In this document: positions 33,861-41,887 of the stretch, piece after piece
Layout of the letters: every line of letters starts with the position of its first letter
Numbering within the stretch: position 1 is the first letter of the stretch
NCBI GenBank assembly: GCA_018335795.1
Contig: JAGXRP010000007.1
Coordinates: forward strand, 1 to 63,262
Reading direction: 5' to 3'
DNA: 63,262 nucleotides
DNA from: Desulfobulbaceae bacterium
GTDB taxonomy: Bacteria > Bacteroidota > Ignavibacteria > Kapaibacteriales > UBA2268
Notes under the pieces: generated by a model
Databases searched by the model: none
What the model saw: only the letters and a program-made list of their open reading frames with translations
What the model was told of the DNA's origin: nothing
Program-made: the position numbers and the translations under genes

Positions 33861-35336
33861 TCAATTATTTTCTTTAAGATTCTTGTCTATTTGTCTCAAT
33901 ACTGAGTTTAGTTCATCACTTTTTATGGGTTTATTAATGATAGCATAAAACAAGTGCATTTCTTCATCTAATTTTAATACTGAATGGACATTACTCATGG
34001 CAATAATTGGTATGTTTCTAGTGTTTTTGTTAAGTTTGATATGCCTTGTTGCTTCTATTCCATTCATTCCGGACATTCTCAAATTCATAAAAATCAAATC
34101 CGGTTTGATTTCAGCTGCTAATATTATGGCACTTTCAGCTCTATCAGCTTCATAATAACTAGCATTATAAGATCTGAACATTTGTTTAAGGTTTTTTCTA
34201 TCTAATTTCTGGTCATTCACTACTAATATGGATTTGATATTTTTCAATATAAATACTTCGCTATTAGTGTACTTCATTTCCGAAACTTTATTCTCTTTTA
34301 TAAAGGGAACGTTAGCAAGTTTCAAAGTAAATACAGAGCCAACTCCCAATTTTGAATCAATATTCAATTCACCTTTTAGTTTCTTGACTAATTTCGAAAC
34401 AATCGCCAAGCCCAACCCTGCACCACCAAAGCTTTTGCTGTTATTCTCATTTGCTTGAGAAAATATTTCGTAAAGATGCTCTTTATACTCGTCGGAAATA
34501 CCCAATCCTGTATCAATCACTTGGAGTTGGAGGTCTAATTTATTATTTCTCAGATTTTGGAATTCAACTTTTACAATTACAGAACCTTCGTGAGTAAATT
34601 TTATAGCATTGCCGATAAGATTGAATAGAATCTGCCGAAGCATGATCTCATCTAAACTTAATCTAACATTGATGAACTGCTTGAATTGAATATCAAAATT
34701 CAGTCCTTTATTTTTGATTTGAAAACTGAAAATATCATAAATTTCATCAAAAACTTGTTTCAAGTCTGTTGCATCTGCTACAACGTCAACTAATCCAGAT
34801 TGAAGCTTGGACAAACTGAGCAGGTCGTTTATTAATGATAGAAGATTATTACTGTTTTGTTTGATTATATTTAGTCTCGAAATATGATTTTCATCAACCG
34901 ATTCGTTAATCAAAATATCCGAATACCCCAATATTGCATTAAGCGGAGTTCGGAATTCATGGCTAATATTTGAAATAAAATCAATCTTCGTATTACCAGA
35001 AATTTCATTTTCAATTTCTGAGAGATTGTCTAATTCATTGAGTTCAAAGAGTATGAATTTACTCCCATTTTGGGATATATCTGTCGCCTTTATTTGGATT
35101 GTCCGGATTGAATCGTTATCATTCAAAAAAATTCGTAAAGACATCTTATTATCATCTGATTTCAATTCATTATACGAATCAGTTAACAACTCTTTTATAA
35201 AATCTACTGAATATACTGACTTATCAATAATTTTAGAGGCAGCAGAATTACTATAAATGACTGAAAAATCGCTATCAGCAACTATTATTCCATGACTTGT
35301 TGAATCCAAGACAATATTTAGCAGTTTTTCCATCAT
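33861..35336 (-). CDS. PAS-histidine kinase with degenerate C-terminal receiver
   Basis: The 491-residue soluble protein has an N-terminal PAS-like region (about 5-105), HisKA with NISHEFRTPLNAI, and an ATPase with NLIGNAIKFTHEG, DTGLGIS and GAGLGLAIVSKL. A C-terminal receiver-like domain (about 366-485) follows. In that domain the phospho-acceptor position reads IFMNLRMSG (Asn instead of Asp; codon at 34083-34085) and the upstream acidic pair reads VVNDQ, while the KP lysine stays. It is therefore a pseudo-receiver. ATG 35336 (or 35333) is used; the track start upstream is GTG. It lies 36 bases beyond aroC and precedes a second kinase. Confidence 0.9.
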   Translation of the reverse strand: MMEKLLNIVLDSTSHGIIVADSDFSVIYSNSAASKIIDKSVYSVDFIKELLTDSYNELKSDDNKMSLRIFLNDNDSIRTIQIKATDISQNGSKFILFELNELDNLSEIENEISGNTKIDFISNISHEFRTPLNAILGYSDILINESVDENHISRLNIIKQNSNNLLSLINDLLSLSKLQSGLVDVVADATDLKQVFDEIYDIFSFQIKNKGLNFDIQFKQFINVRLSLDEIMLRQILFNLIGNAIKFTHEGSVIVKVEFQNLRNNKLDLQLQVIDTGLGISDEYKEHLYEIFSQANENNSKSFGGAGLGLAIVSKLVKKLKGELNIDSKLGVGSVFTLKLANVPFIKENKVSEMKYTNSEVFILKNIKSILVVNDQKLDRKNLKQMFRSYNASYYEADRAESAIILAAEIKPDLIFMNLRMSGMNGIEATRHIKLNKNTRNIPIIAMSNVHSVLKLDEEMHLFYAIINKPIKSDELNSVLRQIDKNLKENN

Positions 35337-35372
35337 AAACACATTAATATAAATTTTATATTACAAATATAG

Positions 35373-36350
35373 TCAATATACTTTATTTAGTAGAATCAAG
35401 TCTGCAATACATATTGCAGAAACAGCTTCTAAAACAGGCGGTATTCGCAATGCAATACACGCATCATGTCGTCCTTTAGTAATCAATTCAGCATGTTCGC
35501 CGGTTCTGATATCAATTGAATTTTGGGCTTTCGAAATTGATGAAGTCGGTTTCACAGCAATTCGAAATATTATATTGTTGCCATTTGAAATTCCGCCGTT
35601 AACACCACCTGAATTATTTGTAGTTGTCTTACCTTCATAGCCAATAATCTCATCATTCATTAAACTACCCGTAATTTTGGCAGATTCAAATCCTCTGCCA
35701 AATTCAATTGCTTTTATTGCCGGAATTGAGAATACTGCATGAGCCAAAACGGATTCTACAGAGTCAAAAAAGGGCTCACCCAGACCTATCGGAACGTCCG
35801 AAATAATACATTCGACTATACCACCTAAGGAATCACCCGATTGAATAGCAATATTAAGCACTTCTTCATAATTCGCAACTCCGCCAATTTCAACAATTCG
35901 GGCTTCGATTTTGATAAGGCCAAGCAGCTTTTTAGCAACTACACCTGCTGCTACTAATGGAGTTGTAAGTCGTCCTGAGAAATGCCCACTGCCTCGAAAA
36001 TCATTGAAACCCTTGTATTTGAAATGTGCTGAAAAATCAGAATGACCCGGACGAGGAATGAATTTATTCTTATCATAATCACTACTTCTTTGTTGATTAT
36101 TTTCAAAAGTTATTGCTAATGGTGCTCCGTTAGTTTTTCCTTCAAAAACACCCGAAAGTATTATCGGAACATCATCTTCTATTCGAGCTGTTGTTCCAGT
36201 TTTTCCGGGTTTTCGTCGCTCTAGATCGGCTTTGAAATCATAAGGAGAAAGAGAAATTCCCGGTGGACAACCGTCAATTAATACACCAACAACGGGACCA
36301 TGCGATTCACCGAATAAACTCACTCTAAATATTCTTCCGAAGGAATTCAT
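35373..36350 (-). CDS. aroC: Chorismate synthase
   Basis: The last shared step of aromatic amino-acid synthesis: EPSP to chorismate, with reduced FMN. The 325-residue protein has LFGESHGPVVGVLIDG at the N-terminus, ERRKPGKTGTTARIEDD, FRGSGHFSGRLTTPLVAAG, NNSGGVNGGISNG and the C-terminal TKGRHDACIALRIPPVLEA, all expected active-site blocks. It is at the short end of the family (usual 350-400). The start overlaps the aroA stop by 4 bases; it is the last enzyme gene of the shikimate run. Confidence 0.95.
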   Translation of the reverse strand: MNSFGRIFRVSLFGESHGPVVGVLIDGCPPGISLSPYDFKADLERRKPGKTGTTARIEDDVPIILSGVFEGKTNGAPLAITFENNQQRSSDYDKNKFIPRPGHSDFSAHFKYKGFNDFRGSGHFSGRLTTPLVAAGVVAKKLLGLIKIEARIVEIGGVANYEEVLNIAIQSGDSLGGIVECIISDVPIGLGEPFFDSVESVLAHAVFSIPAIKAIEFGRGFESAKITGSLMNDEIIGYEGKTTTNNSGGVNGGISNGNNIIFRIAVKPTSSISKAQNSIDIRTGEHAELITKGRHDACIALRIPPVLEAVSAICIADLILLNKVY

Positions 36351-37594
36351 TTTACTTCTAAATTTAGTTTCTTCATGTCATCCCAAAATTTTGGGTATGA
36401 TTTGCTAACACAATGTGAATCGTCTATTATCACTCCACGCTCTGAAATTGCCCCTGCAATTGCGAATGACATAGCTAATCTGTGGTCATTGTAGGTTTGG
36501 GCATTTCCGCCAATAAATCGCCCACCATTTATGACAATAGCTTTATCTACAATTTCGATTTCAGCATGCATTCTCTTAAATTGATTTACTAAATTAGCCA
36601 ACCTGTTACTTTCTTTAAATTGCAGACGTTCGACGCCGCGAATAGTTGATTTACCTGAAACTGTCAGTGCTATAGGGATTAAAACAGGAACCAAATCAGG
36701 TGTATTAGTCGCATTGTAATCAAATGACTTAAGTTCTGATTTTTCAATTATAATGCTACCATCAACTAATCTCATTTTTGCCCCAATGCTTATTAATAAA
36801 TCCATAATTGCCCTATCAGGTTGAATTGAATTAATATTCAATCCATTTATTTTGATAGTACCTGATGCAATAGCACCTAAGCCCATTATAAATGCAGCAG
36901 CACTCCAATCACCCTCGACAACGAATTCATGAGTGTGATTATGACTGATGTTCAAGAGTCTGAATTTTGAATAATCCTCATTTGAGAAGTTGACTCCAAT
37001 GCTCTTAAGTGATTCTAAAGTATAATCTATATATCCTTTACTTTTCAATGTTTTAACACGAACAGTTTGATAAATATGCAATTTTGAAAATAGGTACAAA
37101 ATTCCTGTAAGATATTGTGAGCTAATGCTTCCATCTATACTGATTTCGATACCTTTTGCAGCACCTTTTGAAGTAATTCTACATCTCTCATAATCAATGT
37201 CTATTGAAGAATTCAGTTGTTTTGCAATTGATTCCAAATCGCTTAATGGTCTTTTGAACAAACTTTTTGCCCCAATGAAGACCGTTTTTCCTTCAAAGCA
37301 AAGTGCGACTAACGGTAAAACTCGTGCGCAGAATCCGGATTCACCAAGGTAGATAACGTTTTCCGTTTTATTTAATTCGCCGGAAATGATTGCAGTACCG
37401 GAGTCGAATTCAATAGATTTGCCCCAATGTCTCAAAGCATTTATAAGCACAATGCTGTCATCGCTATCCGAAAGATTCTTGATTTTCACTTCTGATTCTG
37501 TCATCATAGAATTAAGCAGAAGCCGCTGTGAGTGGCTTTTGGAAGGAGGTGCGGAAACGACACCTTCAATATTAGAACGTGTTACGAATTTCAT
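36347..37594 (-). CDS. aroA: 3-phosphoshikimate 1-carboxyvinyltransferase (EPSP synthase)
   Basis: AroA joins phosphoenolpyruvate to shikimate-3-phosphate. The 415-residue protein has PPSKSHSQRLL at the substrate site, GESGFCARVLP, SSQYLTGIL, VEGDWSAAAFIMG, LQFKESNRLANL and the C-terminal YNDHRLAMSFAIAG. The length is normal. The start lies 23 bases inside the aroEK gene end, and the stop overlaps aroC by 4 bases. It belongs to the run that encodes the whole pathway. Confidence 0.95.
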   Translation of the reverse strand: MKFVTRSNIEGVVSAPPSKSHSQRLLLNSMMTESEVKIKNLSDSDDSIVLINALRHWGKSIEFDSGTAIISGELNKTENVIYLGESGFCARVLPLVALCFEGKTVFIGAKSLFKRPLSDLESIAKQLNSSIDIDYERCRITSKGAAKGIEISIDGSISSQYLTGILYLFSKLHIYQTVRVKTLKSKGYIDYTLESLKSIGVNFSNEDYSKFRLLNISHNHTHEFVVEGDWSAAAFIMGLGAIASGTIKINGLNINSIQPDRAIMDLLISIGAKMRLVDGSIIIEKSELKSFDYNATNTPDLVPVLIPIALTVSGKSTIRGVERLQFKESNRLANLVNQFKRMHAEIEIVDKAIVINGGRFIGGNAQTYNDHRLAMSFAIAGAISERGVIIDDSHCVSKSYPKFWDDMKKLNLEVK

Positions 37595-38801
37595 TTTCGA
37601 GCAAATCTAAGGTTTTCTCAAGTTGATTATTATGAAAAATCATATCAGATGATTGAAAATACGCATCTATTCTACTTTCGTAAAGTTCAGCAACATTTTG
37701 GCTAAGTAATGGTCTTTTCATATTGTCAGTTCGTTCCATAATTTCACGTAAGTAATTGAATATCCATATATTATAACCACTCGATTTGATAGTTTCTACA
37801 TTCGTAGGGTCGAGTATAGTGCCACCACCAAGCGAGATAATAGTCTTGGTTCGCATCGAAATTTCTTTTAATACAGTGCTTTCTATCTCTCTGAAACCAC
37901 TTTCTCCAAGTGTATTGAAAATATTAGAGATAGTCATACCTGTAATCATTTCTATGTATTCGTCCAAATCTATGAAATCGTATATAAGCCTAATTGCTAA
38001 CTCCTTGCCAATTGTAGTTTTGCCGGACTTCATAAATCCAGTTAGATAGATATTGCTTTTTTCGTTTATTGAAAAATCGCTATTTAGTTCAAAATCAGAA
38101 GTATCTATATCTATAGCATACTCGAAGGATTTCATACCTTGCAACTTCAACCATTCAAGCCCTTCAATGTAAAGTTTAGCTTGAAACGCTTTCAACCAAG
38201 GCTTATGATAAATTGCATCAATAACGATTGAATCTTTGAAAAAAGTAGCCGGATAGTTGAAAGCTTTTTTGGGATGAGTGTTGATAATCAAATCAAATTG
38301 GCTATTAAAATTCATCAACTCATCGAACTTAAATGATTGATAATAAGGGTTATTAGAATCTCGGATTGATAGTCCGATAATTTCTTCACTGAATTTTTTG
38401 AGCACAAGATAGCTAATTAAAGCTGTATCACCACCACCTATAATGAGTGCTTTTTTAATATTCTTTTGTGGTAATTGCTTTAGAATTTCTGAAATTGCAA
38501 AAGTATCAGAATTTAATGCAATCGGTTGGGAAGAATTGAACAAGATTGTATTGACTAATTTTGTTTCAAATGCAGTAGATTGCATTATATAGCCGAGTTT
38601 CATTGCTTCACTTTTGAATGGCGATGTGATGTTGATGTAATCAAGTTCAAGATAATTTACAAGATTTATTACATCATCAAAATCACTTCCGCAAATGCGA
38701 GAATAATGACCTTCAATGCCACTGATTTGAAATAGCTGATGAGCCAAAATCGGGCTTAAGCTATGTAAAATTGGACTGCCAATAACTGCCGCTCTAATCA
38801 T
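37572..38801 (-). CDS. aroEK: Shikimate dehydrogenase-shikimate kinase fusion protein
   Basis: The 409-residue protein joins two consecutive pathway steps. Residues 1-240 are shikimate dehydrogenase: IGSPILHSLSPI, INITSPFK with the catalytic lysine, NSDTFA at the catalytic Asp position and a Rossmann-type IIGGGDTALIS. Residues about 248-409 are shikimate kinase: P-loop GFMKSGKTTIG, DLDEYIE, FREIES with the shikimate arginine, SLGGGTIL and KRPLLS in the lid. No internal stop or start that would split the two parts is visible. The start overlaps the aroD stop by 4 bases. The dehydrogenase part is shorter than free AroE (about 270). Confidence 0.9.
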   Translation of the reverse strand: MIRAAVIGSPILHSLSPILAHQLFQISGIEGHYSRICGSDFDDVINLVNYLELDYINITSPFKSEAMKLGYIMQSTAFETKLVNTILFNSSQPIALNSDTFAISEILKQLPQKNIKKALIIGGGDTALISYLVLKKFSEEIIGLSIRDSNNPYYQSFKFDELMNFNSQFDLIINTHPKKAFNYPATFFKDSIVIDAIYHKPWLKAFQAKLYIEGLEWLKLQGMKSFEYAIDIDTSDFELNSDFSINEKSNIYLTGFMKSGKTTIGKELAIRLIYDFIDLDEYIEMITGMTISNIFNTLGESGFREIESTVLKEISMRTKTIISLGGGTILDPTNVETIKSSGYNIWIFNYLREIMERTDNMKRPLLSQNVAELYESRIDAYFQSSDMIFHNNQLEKTLDLLENEIRNTF

Positions 38802-39430
38802 ATTCCCATAGTTTTGGCAAATAAATCGTATTCGTCATTAGTCAATTGTCCCTCACCTGTTTTACCGGATTCGTTAAGGGAAACATAAGTGAATGGCGAA
38901 CCAAGCACCAGACTTAACATTCGAGTAAATTTCATCGAATCCCCTGCAACAAAAGAAATCATTTTGGGTTGAAATATTTTGAAAGTGGAAATATAATCCA
39001 TAATGTAGCTTCGTTCACATTCGGAATAAATGATTTTGATGTAGTCGCAATCAACTTGTTGGAACTTTTCGAAGACAATGTCTAATTCAGCTTTTTGAGA
39101 TAAATCCACATCGTGTTTTGATAAAATCAACTGTACACCATTGTTTCTTAACATTGCTACAAATGGCATTGTTTGTTGATTGATTAGTCCCAAATCTAAA
39201 TCAACAGCCATAACTTTTAGTCCAATAGCAAGGGCTACAAATTCTTTTAAATTTGTTTCATCAACATTCTTATCTGTTAAAATGAGTTTTCGTTTAGAAT
39301 AATCAGAAATAGTACTTAGTTGTTCATATTCGAATTGAGCCAAGTCCTGCCTTAGTTCGACAAGCGGAAAACGCTCAAACATATTTAAAAACAAATCAAG
39401 CTCTTTCTTTCCATAGCTTAAGCACTTCAT
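38798..39430 (-). CDS. aroD: 3-dehydroquinate dehydratase, type I
   Basis: The 210-residue protein matches the Schiff-base type I dehydroquinase. PLVELRQDL is at the N-terminal strand, the catalytic histidine lies in ILSKHDVD, the Schiff-base lysine in CDYIKIIYS, the phosphate-type arginine in FTRMLSL, and the C-terminal PFTYVSLN and GEGQLTN close the active site. The usual glutamate in the DiE motif is aspartate here (VDLDLGL). ATG 39430 is used; it overlaps the aroB end by 35 bases. The first 15 residues are less typical. Confidence 0.87.
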   Translation of the reverse strand: MKCLSYGKKELDLFLNMFERFPLVELRQDLAQFEYEQLSTISDYSKRKLILTDKNVDETNLKEFVALAIGLKVMAVDLDLGLINQQTMPFVAMLRNNGVQLILSKHDVDLSQKAELDIVFEKFQQVDCDYIKIIYSECERSYIMDYISTFKIFQPKMISFVAGDSMKFTRMLSLVLGSPFTYVSLNESGKTGEGQLTNDEYDLFAKTMGI

Positions 39431-40403
39431 GGCATACACTCTTAAATTCGATTATATCTGTGTTGAAAATATATGGCTCGCCGATGGCTTTTAGCAAAAT
39501 AAATTCTATTTTTTCATATGATGATTTCTTGTCTTGGCTAACAATTTTAGCGACATCATCAACTACAAAATCATACTTGTATTGCATATTGTAAGCATTC
39601 ACTATTTTATAAAAGGACATCAATTCGTCACTTGAGATGTCTCCTTTTAAATGTGAGAATTCCATCCCGAAACTCATTCCAATGCTCACAGCTTGCCCGT
39701 GAGAAATATTATAGAGTAATTCAATCGCATGACCCAGTGTATGACCGAAATTCAGGATTTTTCTAAACCCAACATCAAATGGGTCATGAGCAACGATTTC
39801 ACTTTTGATATTTGCAGAACGTGAAATGATTTTTTCAAAAAGTGTATCATCTTTCAAAATAGATTTCAAATCATTTTCTATCAGCCAATTCATAATTTTC
39901 TCATCATAAATCAATCCGTATTTGATGACCTCCGCCATTCCATTCTTTAATTCTTCGCGAGGCAAAGTATTTAGAAAAAATCTGTTCACATAGATGTATT
40001 CAGGAGTTTTGAATGTTCCGATAAGGTTTTTATAATCCTGGAAATTCACGCCGGATTTGCCACCGATTGAAGCATCAACTTGAGCTAACAATGTGGTAGG
40101 GACAAGCCCAAGCTTTGTTCCACGTTTATAAACAGATGCCAAAAATGCAGCAATATCAGTAACCACGCCACCGCCGACGCCAACAATCATTTGGTTGCGA
40201 CGTAAATTGAATTTCAACAATTTTTTGATTATCTGCTCCAAATTGCTCATTGATTTGCTTTCTTCGCCGCTTGGAATTTTGATAATTTTATATGAATCAA
40301 AATGCGACTTGAAATGTTTATATGCATTCTCATCAATCAAAAAAACGTCCCCGTCAATGTGTCGGAGATACTCGAATTCATCATCGTGTTCGATTATTAA
40401 CAT
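39396..40403 (-). CDS. aroB: 3-dehydroquinate synthase
   Basis: The NAD- and zinc-dependent second step of the shikimate pathway: DAHP to 3-dehydroquinate. The 335-residue protein shows SGEESKS, VGVGGGVVTDIAAFLAS (NAD loop), VPTTLLAQVDASIGGKSGVN, NGMAEVIKYGLI with a zinc glutamate, and ILNFGHTLGHAIE with the zinc histidine. The N-terminal 20 residues are short compared with E. coli AroB (362), but the domains are complete. It lies 4 bases after the DAHP synthase gene and overlaps aroD. Confidence 0.95.
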   Translation of the reverse strand: MLIIEHDDEFEYLRHIDGDVFLIDENAYKHFKSHFDSYKIIKIPSGEESKSMSNLEQIIKKLLKFNLRRNQMIVGVGGGVVTDIAAFLASVYKRGTKLGLVPTTLLAQVDASIGGKSGVNFQDYKNLIGTFKTPEYIYVNRFFLNTLPREELKNGMAEVIKYGLIYDEKIMNWLIENDLKSILKDDTLFEKIISRSANIKSEIVAHDPFDVGFRKILNFGHTLGHAIELLYNISHGQAVSIGMSFGMEFSHLKGDISSDELMSFYKIVNAYNMQYKYDFVVDDVAKIVSQDKKSSYEKIEFILLKAIGEPYIFNTDIIEFKSVCHEVLKLWKERA

Positions 40404-40407
40404 GACA

Positions 40408-41442
40408 TTATCTAATTAAAAGTTTCAAAATTCTTTCCAATTCTTGCGGAGAAATCGTCTGCGACGAATCCGACACCGACTCCTCCGGGTTTACATGACA
40501 TTCAATCATCAGTCCATCAGCACCCAACTCCAATGCTGCTTTAGAAACAGGATAAACATAACTTGCTTTTCCGGTGGCGTGAGATGGGTCAAAAATCACC
40601 TTTAAAGGCGAATTACGTTTCAATTCTACAATCGAAGCCAAGTCAGGTGTATAACGCAATTCAGATTCAATTTGTTCAAATGAACGAATTCCTCGCAAAC
40701 AAAGCATCACATTTGGGTTGCCCTCGTTTATAATATACTGCGATGCTAGAAGAAATTCATTAATAGTGGAAGCGAAACCTCTTTTGAGTATAATAGGCTT
40801 TTTATCCTTAGATGTTCTTTTACCAACCTGTTTAAGAAATCCTGACGAAGTCATATTCCGACTGCCGATTTGGATTATATCCACTTCGTCATAGTGCTTC
40901 TCTAATTGCTCTGAATCAGTAAATTCACTAACCACAAACATATCATATTTGAGAGCCGTTTCTTTCAACAATCGAATACCTTCGTTTTCGAGTCCCTGAA
41001 ATGACATTGGAGAAGTACGAGGTTTAAAGGCACCACCACGCAATAATCTTATACCGAGATTACTCAATTTTTGAGCAACGCTTTCGATTTGCTCTTGATT
41101 TTCTACAGTACATGGTCCTGCAATTATAAAAGGTGTATTTGCTAAAATTTTCTCAAGACTTAGATTTTGCAAGCCTGAAAACTTAAAATAGTCAATCTTA
41201 GAGTAAAACAAAATGTCGCCGAATATGTGTTCAATCTGAAAACTGTCTATTCGGTCATGAAATTTAGTTTTGAGCCTGTTCAGTATGTCTAACTCTCTGT
41301 CCGAGTCATAAATCGGAATCTGAGCATTGACTTTTTGTTTTATGATTCCATCCGATTGAGTCTTTCTATCAATAAGCAGTTCGACGATTTGGTCGTCAAT
41401 CCTATCAATTTCCTGTCTCAATTTTTCAATATTATTAAGCAT
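40408..41442 (-). CDS. aroF: Chorismate mutase-DAHP synthase bifunctional enzyme
   Basis: The 344-residue protein has an N-terminal AroQ-type chorismate mutase (about 1-85; KLRQEIDRIDDQIVELL) fused to a type I-beta DAHP synthase (about 95-344). The latter has IIAGPCTVEN, LLRGGAFKPRTSP, IQIGSRNM, LKRGFAS, CLRGIRSFE, VIFDPSHATGK and IECHVNPEES. In relatives the mutase domain acts as the sensor for chorismate/prephenate feedback. ATG 41442 is used; the track start is an upstream TTG that overlaps the FKBP gene. It sits 7 bases after that gene and 4 bases before aroB. Confidence 0.93.
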   Translation of the reverse strand: MLNNIEKLRQEIDRIDDQIVELLIDRKTQSDGIIKQKVNAQIPIYDSDRELDILNRLKTKFHDRIDSFQIEHIFGDILFYSKIDYFKFSGLQNLSLEKILANTPFIIAGPCTVENQEQIESVAQKLSNLGIRLLRGGAFKPRTSPMSFQGLENEGIRLLKETALKYDMFVVSEFTDSEQLEKHYDEVDIIQIGSRNMTSSGFLKQVGKRTSKDKKPIILKRGFASTINEFLLASQYIINEGNPNVMLCLRGIRSFEQIESELRYTPDLASIVELKRNSPLKVIFDPSHATGKASYVYPVSKAALELGADGLMIECHVNPEESVSDSSQTISPQELERILKLLIR

Positions 41443-41449
41443 AATTAAT

Positions 41450-41887
41450 TTAATCGTGTTCAATTATGTCAATAAGTTCAACTTCAAAGGACAAAGATTT
41501 ACCTACATAGGGATGATTAGCATCTATCAGCACTTCATCTTCCTGATTCTGAACGACTTCAACAGTTATCAATTCACCCGAAGGCAATTGCAGTTCTACT
41601 ATGTCTCCCGGTTCTGGTTCAATGTCGAAAACAAGGTCTTTCCTGTCAACAAGTAAAATAAAATCAGGATTATGCAGCCCATAAGCTTGTTCAGGTTCAA
41701 TTGAAAAATTTCTTTTTTCACCAATTTTCATACCGATAATATTTTCTTTCAAACCAGGCAGGAGTTCCTCATCGGTTAATAAAAATTCATACGGAGATGA
41801 ATTGGTAGTGTTATCAAAAATGAATCCGTCATCGAACATACCGAGCAAATGAACAACTATTCTGTCACCCTCTTGAGCAATTTTCAT
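41450..41887 (-). CDS. FKBP-type peptidyl-prolyl cis-trans isomerase, SlyD-like
   Basis: A 145-residue isomerase with the SlyD-type arrangement: VHLLGMFDDGFIFDNT, LPGLKENIIGMKIGEKRNFSIEPEQAYG, then an inserted chaperone flap (about 78-125) and the closing LSFEVELIDI strand. The His-rich metal-binding tail of E. coli SlyD is absent. It stands first in the shikimate run, 7 bases before the DAHP synthase ATG, so it is probably cotranscribed with it. Whether it aids folding of these enzymes is inference. Confidence 0.88.
   Translation of the reverse strand: MKIAQEGDRIVVHLLGMFDDGFIFDNTTNSSPYEFLLTDEELLPGLKENIIGMKIGEKRNFSIEPEQAYGLHNPDFILLVDRKDLVFDIEPEPGDIVELQLPSGELITVEVVQNQEDEVLIDANHPYVGKSLSFEVELIDIIEHD

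Follow-up and report, generated by a model that had tools for sequence, protein, structure and literature searches.

Does a single open frame within a shikimate operon encode two consecutive enzymes of the pathway in one protein? The question is raised by a 63,262-nucleotide stretch (the window) of contig JAGXRP010000007.1, from a Kapaibacteriales genome (GCA_018335795.1). In the window, one minus-strand frame, here named aroEK, joins a shikimate dehydrogenase-like half (AroE) to a shikimate kinase-like half (AroK) through a short, variable linker. Its sequence makes it very probable that the product is a bifunctional enzyme for steps 4 and 5 of the shikimate pathway. The fused gene (37572..38801, minus strand) has an ATG start, 409 codons plus a stop, and in-frame orthologues. 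The AroE half (residues 1 to about 233; 38103..38801, minus strand) is assigned from PF08501, conserved residues and a comparison of a model with AroE structures. The linker (residues ~234–248; 38058..38102, minus strand) is fast-evolving, and its length varies across family f1, to which the genome belongs. The AroK half (residues 249–409; 37575..38057, minus strand) is assigned from PF01202 and conserved residues.

Both Pfam families match this frame above their curated cut-offs, in agreement with the original prediction of AroE-like and AroK-like parts. Shikimate_dh_N (PF08501) matches residues 6–86 with an E-value of 3.2e-12 (47 bits, cut-off 27), and SKI (PF01202) matches residues 257–395 with an E-value of 2.9e-35 (122.2 bits, cut-off 22.1). 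The genome is 3.53 Mb in 82 contigs, with 99.93% completeness and 3.09% contamination. It contains one match each to AroE_N, SKI and type I dehydroquinase, and all three are inside the aro operon. A check for separate aroE or aroK copies had been proposed; no AroE_N or SKI match is present outside the aroEK frame in the whole genome, in a search that did not extend to shikimate kinases of other folds. The two domains thus share one frame and have no free copies, which identifies a fusion, known here from the gene alone.

The joined frame is kept in two genes of the same genus, which are 83% and 81% identical to aroEK. Ratios of nonsynonymous to synonymous substitution rates (dN/dS, NG86) were computed for each region. 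For the AroE half, the window gene gives 0.08 and 0.07 against these two genes, and the two relatives give 0.10 against each other; the corresponding values are 0.12, 0.09 and 0.18 for the AroK half, and 0.46, 0.27 and 0.50 for the linker (residues 230–248). Over the three gene pairs, the linker ranges from 0.27 to 0.50 and the halves from 0.07 to 0.18. On these ratios, purifying selection acts on both halves. The frame had been described as having no visible internal start. This is correct from codon 223 to codon 257, inside the Walker A loop, between which there is no in-frame ATG, GTG or TTG in the three same-genus genes. It does not hold for codons 218–223, where start-like codons occur within the final helix of AroE, 26 residues or more ahead of the first strand of the kinase. 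The only ATG among them is codon 223, which is TTG in both same-genus relatives. Because codons 223–257 contain no start and the ATG at codon 223 is not kept, separate translation of the kinase is unlikely, although start codons by themselves do not settle this.

The residues expected in both active sites are conserved. The alignment used for this comparison contains 29 of the 35 fused f1 proteins, excluding the three trifunctional proteins, the contig-cut proteins of G249 and G253, and the protein of G277. In the AroE half, S14, S16, K63 (codon 38613-38615), N84, N97, D99 (codon 38505-38507) and Q221 are invariant in all 29 proteins. The same is true in the AroK half of G255, G260, K261, D280, R304, E307, G325, G327, P364 and R377; the Walker A motif, GFMKSGKT, is at 38016-38039. 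We take these residues to include the catalytic Lys and Asp and substrate-site residues of AroE, and the Walker A Lys, the magnesium/shikimate Asp, the substrate Arg and the GGG motif of AroK. G122 and G124, in a candidate NADP-binding Rossmann domain, are also invariant. In a second, smaller alignment, the trifunctional proteins and those of family f14 (see below) keep K63, D99, Q221, K261, D280, R304 and R377, and the G160 protein has Ser in place of N57 and Ala in place of G326. The unusual motif NSDTFA, singled out in the original prediction, is present at the catalytic Asp site as N97-S98-D99, but it has little weight as an anomaly. The corresponding motif is NTDTHA in one same-genus gene and NTDTYA in the other, and all 29 aligned proteins carry D99; judged from the alignment, NSDTFA is a species-level change from Thr to Ser with the catalytic Asp retained.

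An AlphaFold2 model built from the 29-row family alignment has a predicted local distance difference test score (pLDDT) of 89.3 and a predicted template modelling score (pTM) of 0.88. Its first 245 residues align with solved shikimate dehydrogenases over 244 residues, with Z 22.6 and a root-mean-square deviation of 2.5. The dehydrogenase half is short, as had been noted, at about 233–245 residues. Most rows of the fold search (VIA-align) span residues 1–247 only. Because the fold matches barely reach the kinase half, the AroK assignment is one of sequence.

An SKI match of E 0.001 or better is present in 39 of the 54 genomes of family f1. Thirty-five of these matches are strong (E 5.8e-26 or better), and all 35 are in frame with an AroE sequence; the remainder are weak (E 5e-6 to 6e-4). 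The 35 fused frames comprise 32 with the order E-K, two with D-E-K and one with E-K-A, and two of them (G253 and G249) are cut by contig ends. Chorismate synthase (AroC) is found in 30 of the 54 genomes, namely in 29 of the 35 with the fusion and in one of the 19 without it (G236, 76% complete). On these counts, genomes without the fusion almost always lack the pathway as well. Some f1 genomes that are 96–100% complete (such as G109, G228 and G260–G268) contain neither AroC nor a strong AroK match. Pathway loss looks frequent in this family, as judged from such gene content.

In the phylogeny of 99 AroE domains, 34 of the 35 fused f1 proteins, one f14 protein and two relatives with a dead-looking kinase form a single clade of 37 rows with support of 100/99. 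This tree includes AroE domains with at least 75% model coverage; the f46 K-D-E proteins, G253, G614 and duplicate loci were left out. The distances among AroE halves agree with those among AroK halves (r 0.82, 35 loci), and none of 2000 permutations gives a value as high. A search across genomes for the fusion with a conserved linker had been suggested; the fusion is widespread in f1, but the length and sequence of the linker vary. The AroE-AroK pairing had also been called uncommon in bacteria. This is borne out in a sample of 395 genomes, confined, like all genome sampling here, to one phylum. Among the rows listed, sorted by E-value, six span both halves, and all six are from f1; no such row is listed for a further three f1 genomes of the sample. 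Four long AroE frames from the phylum sample (L007, L015, L018 and L030) were considered as fusions and rejected, since they contain AroE alone by the B, D, E, K and A profiles. A contig scan with the aroEK protein returns one relative, which matches the AroK half only.

Genus g161 of family f14, which belongs to another order, nests inside the f1 clade. An f1-type aro operon with the E-K fusion is present in two of its three searched genomes (L104 in G367, whole; L144 in G614, cut by a contig end). The third genome, G348 (97% complete), has a match at E 2.8e-7 only. Across the remaining 42 of the 44 genomes of this order no match is strong, the best being at E 7.7e-11. Transfer or mis-binning is a possible explanation of the f14 fusion.

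The surrounding operon is on the minus strand and follows the order of the reactions from step 1 to step 7: DAHPS, AroB, AroD, AroE-K, AroA and AroC. At the head of the run is an FK506-binding protein (FKBP)-type peptidyl-prolyl isomerase (41450..41887; PF00254), which overlaps the next frame by 14 bp. That frame encodes a chorismate mutase–3-deoxy-D-arabino-heptulosonate 7-phosphate synthase (CM-DAHPS; 40408..41463), a known type of fusion with Pfam CM_2 and DAHP_synth_1 domains and NF009239 above its cut-off. It is followed by aroB, for 3-dehydroquinate synthase (39396..40403; TIGR01357 above cut-off), and aroD, for type I 3-dehydroquinase (38798..39439; PF01487, E 1.1e-15, the only PF01487 match in the genome). 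Downstream of aroEK are aroA, for 5-enolpyruvylshikimate-3-phosphate (EPSP) synthase (36347..37594; TIGR01356 above cut-off), and aroC (35373..36350; TIGR00033 above cut-off). By the listed starts, aroB and aroD overlap by 44 bp, aroD and aroEK by 4 bp, aroEK and aroA by 23 bp, and aroA and aroC by 4 bp. Scans of the operon give 43 promoter-like sites (29.7 expected, standard deviation 6.1) and nine terminator-like sites (3.9 expected, standard deviation 2.4), and neither scan is used as support. A histidine kinase with a C-terminal receiver domain (33861-35342) is on the same strand just downstream of aroC.

This gene order recurs among the relatives. Six loci have the full order DAHPS, B, D, E-K, A, C, including one in which D is fused and one outside f1, and shorter loci carry parts of it. 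Some loci depart from it: B and DAHPS of G247 are encoded on the opposite strand, no AroB is seen between DAHPS and D at L059, and neither B nor DAHPS is seen upstream at L067. E-K stands alone at six loci (L044, L048, L055, L056, L058 and L066).

Several results together favour the bifunctional reading: the two halves share one frame, keep the expected residues and are both under purifying selection, no free copy of either enzyme is found, the AroE halves of f1 fall in one clade, and the protein is absent where the rest of the pathway is absent. In step 4 the N-terminal half would reduce 3-dehydroshikimate, and in step 5 the C-terminal half would use ATP to phosphorylate the resulting shikimate. 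The product would then pass to AroA, encoded next in the operon. The benefit of joining the two enzymes may be their fixed 1:1 production and their co-localisation by a flexible tether, not by a tunnel. The fusion could have arisen through loss of the stop codon that separated two adjacent genes, in an operon that was reaction-ordered and overlapping. This joining step was probably repeated in relatives, most simply twice for aroD and once for aroA.

Several observations weigh against this reading. Both halves are divergent, as judged from their profile scores. The AroE equivalog model TIGR00507 scores 70.2 bits and misses its cut-off of 200.2, and the best NCBIfam shikimate kinase model scores 108.4 and misses its cut-off of 204. 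The first half is therefore AroE-like by fold, residues and context, and not an equivalog by curated score. The NAD(P)-domain family PF01488 is not reported for the aroEK protein at E 0.01, and R147, invariant in the 29-protein alignment, is not constant in the second alignment; the cofactor side is the least certain part for these reasons. Model confidence also drops to 57–68 at residues 141–170, in the cofactor domain. Six of the 35 fused f1 genomes show no AroC, at completeness of 72–94%. In genus g124, full-length frames (L069:2514-3719 and L070:4832-6043) have a kinase half without catalytic residues. Their AroE half keeps K63, D99 and Q221, and no AroC is found in the two genomes. Because the g124 kinase half has lost its catalytic residues, a joined frame alone is not proof of two activities.

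It is also conceivable, though unlikely, that the fused enzyme hands shikimate on directly between its AroE and AroK sites, as had been proposed. The two steps are consecutive, and with a pTM of 0.88 the modelled halves may sit in a defined arrangement. The linker weighs against such channelling: it varies in sequence and length and evolves fastest of the three regions, and in some relatives palindromic DNA is inserted within the linker or the domains. Related fusions show no sign of channelling in the accessible text of two papers (PMC9074039; PMC10792529).

A further alternative is that one half of the aroEK protein is catalytically dead and serves as a scaffold or regulator. The dead-looking kinase half of g124 is a precedent, and so is the AROM of Candida albicans, which the available text of PMC9074039 describes as having an inactive domain. 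This is improbable for aroEK, in which both halves keep the expected residues and the genome has no other AroE_N or SKI match while the rest of the pathway is present. Only slightly less probable is an AroE half that now serves another dehydrogenase reaction, which would place the protein partly outside the pathway. Quinate is a substrate of some AroE relatives, and the AroE half here is divergent, short and weakly matched in its cofactor domain. It is, however, the only AroE_N match in the genome, the rest of the pathway is in the same operon, and the expected substrate-site residues are conserved in 29 of 29 proteins. An artefact of sequencing or assembly that joined two overlapping genes (the frameshift or error at 38080-38020 that the original prediction gave as one refutation) can be dismissed: neighbouring operon genes do overlap in different frames, and one false base could join two, but the same frame is present in two other genomes of the genus and 32 further f1 genomes, and in the three same-genus genes no separate start codon for the kinase lies between codons 223 and 257.

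Insertions within open fused frames are found at three loci. At L063:1444-2937 and L064:5122-6519, three palindromic copies of about 40 nt (CCCCCTTT..AAAGGGGG) are inside the open aroEK frame. These loci are from two genomes of one genus, with matching spacings of 254/600 and 254/591 nt. A different palindrome, with 28-nt arms that are 89% complementary, is at L067:5222-5292 (G245), in open frame at the AroE-AroK linker. The G245 linker is the longest in the f1 alignment.

Compared with other multi-enzyme shikimate proteins, aroEK has a distinct composition. The AROM (Aro1) proteins of fungi and protists have five domains in the order B-A-K-D-E. The AROM dehydrogenase domain aligns to the aroEK model (Z 21.5, 6hqv), but aroEK has only E and K, in the opposite relative order, and B, D and A are separate genes. 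In the plant AroD-AroE protein (DHQD-SDH), also reported in some archaea and bacteria, AroE is likewise joined to an enzyme of an adjacent step. There the partner is the preceding step, whereas here aroD is a separate frame with a 4-bp overlap. The AroK-AroB fusion (NCBIfam PRK13951, PRK14021) also places shikimate kinase in a two-enzyme protein, with another partner and another order. The AroD-AroK protein of Clostridia (CASP15 T1180) is, in the available text, also a bacterial bifunctional fusion with shikimate kinase; it joins steps 3 and 5 rather than 4 and 5, and in its crystal structure both active sites are open to solvent (PMC10792529). The same text mentions several bifunctional shikimate fusions in prokaryotes known to its authors. 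It also calls the packing of five enzymes in fungi and protists a long-standing enigma, with prokaryotes typically keeping the enzymes apart. Elsewhere, again from the text available, the AROM of C. thermophilum gives no increased throughput in vitro (PMC9074039), and multi-domain EPSP synthases are rare in bacteria and usually have two domains (PMC9394408).

An AroE-AroK fusion is in print for the Methanomicrobiales, and only two bacterial assemblies are counted with it, according to the accessible part of that report (mSystems 2024, PMC11237513). It contains the same two enzymes in one protein but is archaeal, not bacterial like aroEK, and the two are compared by description only. The AroE-AroK pairing is thus of a documented kind. 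In the accessible text of the open literature searched, neither its occurrence across a bacterial family nor the larger fusions came up.

Three f1 proteins contain a third enzyme. AroD-AroE-AroK is found in G160 (L079:3518-5509, 664 aa) and in G247 (L081:5741-7627, 629 aa), and AroE-AroK-AroA in G234 (L080:6648-9398, 917 aa). In the AroE tree, the E-K-A protein and one of the D-E-K proteins each have an E-K protein as sister (100/97 and 100/96, respectively), and the other D-E-K protein falls in another supported group (98/86); aroD was therefore, most simply, joined twice. The D-E junction of G160 includes an ATG for the downstream enzyme, and neither the D-E junction of G247 nor the K-A junction of G234 does. 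Each trifunctional frame comes from one genome, so, unlike in the E-K frames, an error is possible. No account of a bacterial D-E-K, E-K-A or split AROM was recognised in the accessible text of the open literature searched.

Other families of the class contain further joined frames, found by hidden Markov model (HMM) architecture on fetched loci with a Pfam check of ten proteins. Outside f1 and f46, the counts are examples from selected long frames among the matches listed and not frequencies. Frames of the B-D-E type are found in f43 (at least three genomes) and f44 (at least two), A-K in f44 (at least one genome), and D-E-A in f42 (959 aa). D-E frames are found in f44, f45, f7, f13, f54, f49 and f10, and K-B frames in f12 and f10. 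AroB-AroD-AroE, AroD-AroE-AroA and AroA-AroK frames are present at L074, L075, L078, L111, L114 and L115, in other families of the same order.

In f46, all 12 genomes contain an AroK-x-AroE frame of 608–668 aa. Pfam saw no dehydroquinase in the two of these proteins submitted. A profile comparison of the middle region gives 93% probability for AroD (E 2.8e-7) and 0.4% or less for six other aro profiles. The first matches of its structural model (pLDDT 91.4) are type I dehydroquinases and AROM, although weakly (best E 5.6e-4, template modelling (TM) score 0.57). The middle region looks like a divergent AroD by profile and model. In the AroE part, only the first 127–145 of the 248 positions of the model are matched, which marks the cofactor domain as divergent. 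In the same 12 genomes, AroB and AroA are in one open frame, of 770–866 aa in 11 and cut by a contig end in one. In six genomes a longer similarity match overran stop codons, and the AroB and AroA domains still share one frame. Loci with K-D-E and B-A frames are L118, L119, L163–L172 and L180–L191.

Together, the B-A and K-D-E frames of f46 are the two halves of the AROM domain order. Shared descent with the eukaryotic AROM was considered and not retained, as per-domain matches to solved structures show no preference. AroB scores 131.7 bits to a bacterial chain versus 126.2 to AROM, and AroA scores 117.0 bits to a bacterial chain versus 105.9 to the Candida domain. Since no single domain resembles AROM more than it resembles bacterial enzymes, the claim is limited to a shared domain order.

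No model for the AroE-AroK pair is among the 25 listed of the 28 NCBIfam matches to the aroEK protein, and the fusion therefore bears on gene annotation. In family f1, the E-K fusion is the only AroE and AroK found and close relatives are at further stages of fusion, so that fused and separate forms can be compared. On balance, the class seems to build multi-enzyme shikimate proteins repeatedly from aro operons, with E-K extended to D-E-K twice and to E-K-A once in f1, D-E-A, B-D-E and A-K in other families of the order to which f1 belongs, and a two-piece AROM order in 12 of 12 f46 genomes. If this is true, bacteria hold half-way states towards the five-enzyme AROM of eukaryotes, and the class would be a natural series for asking what fusion buys.

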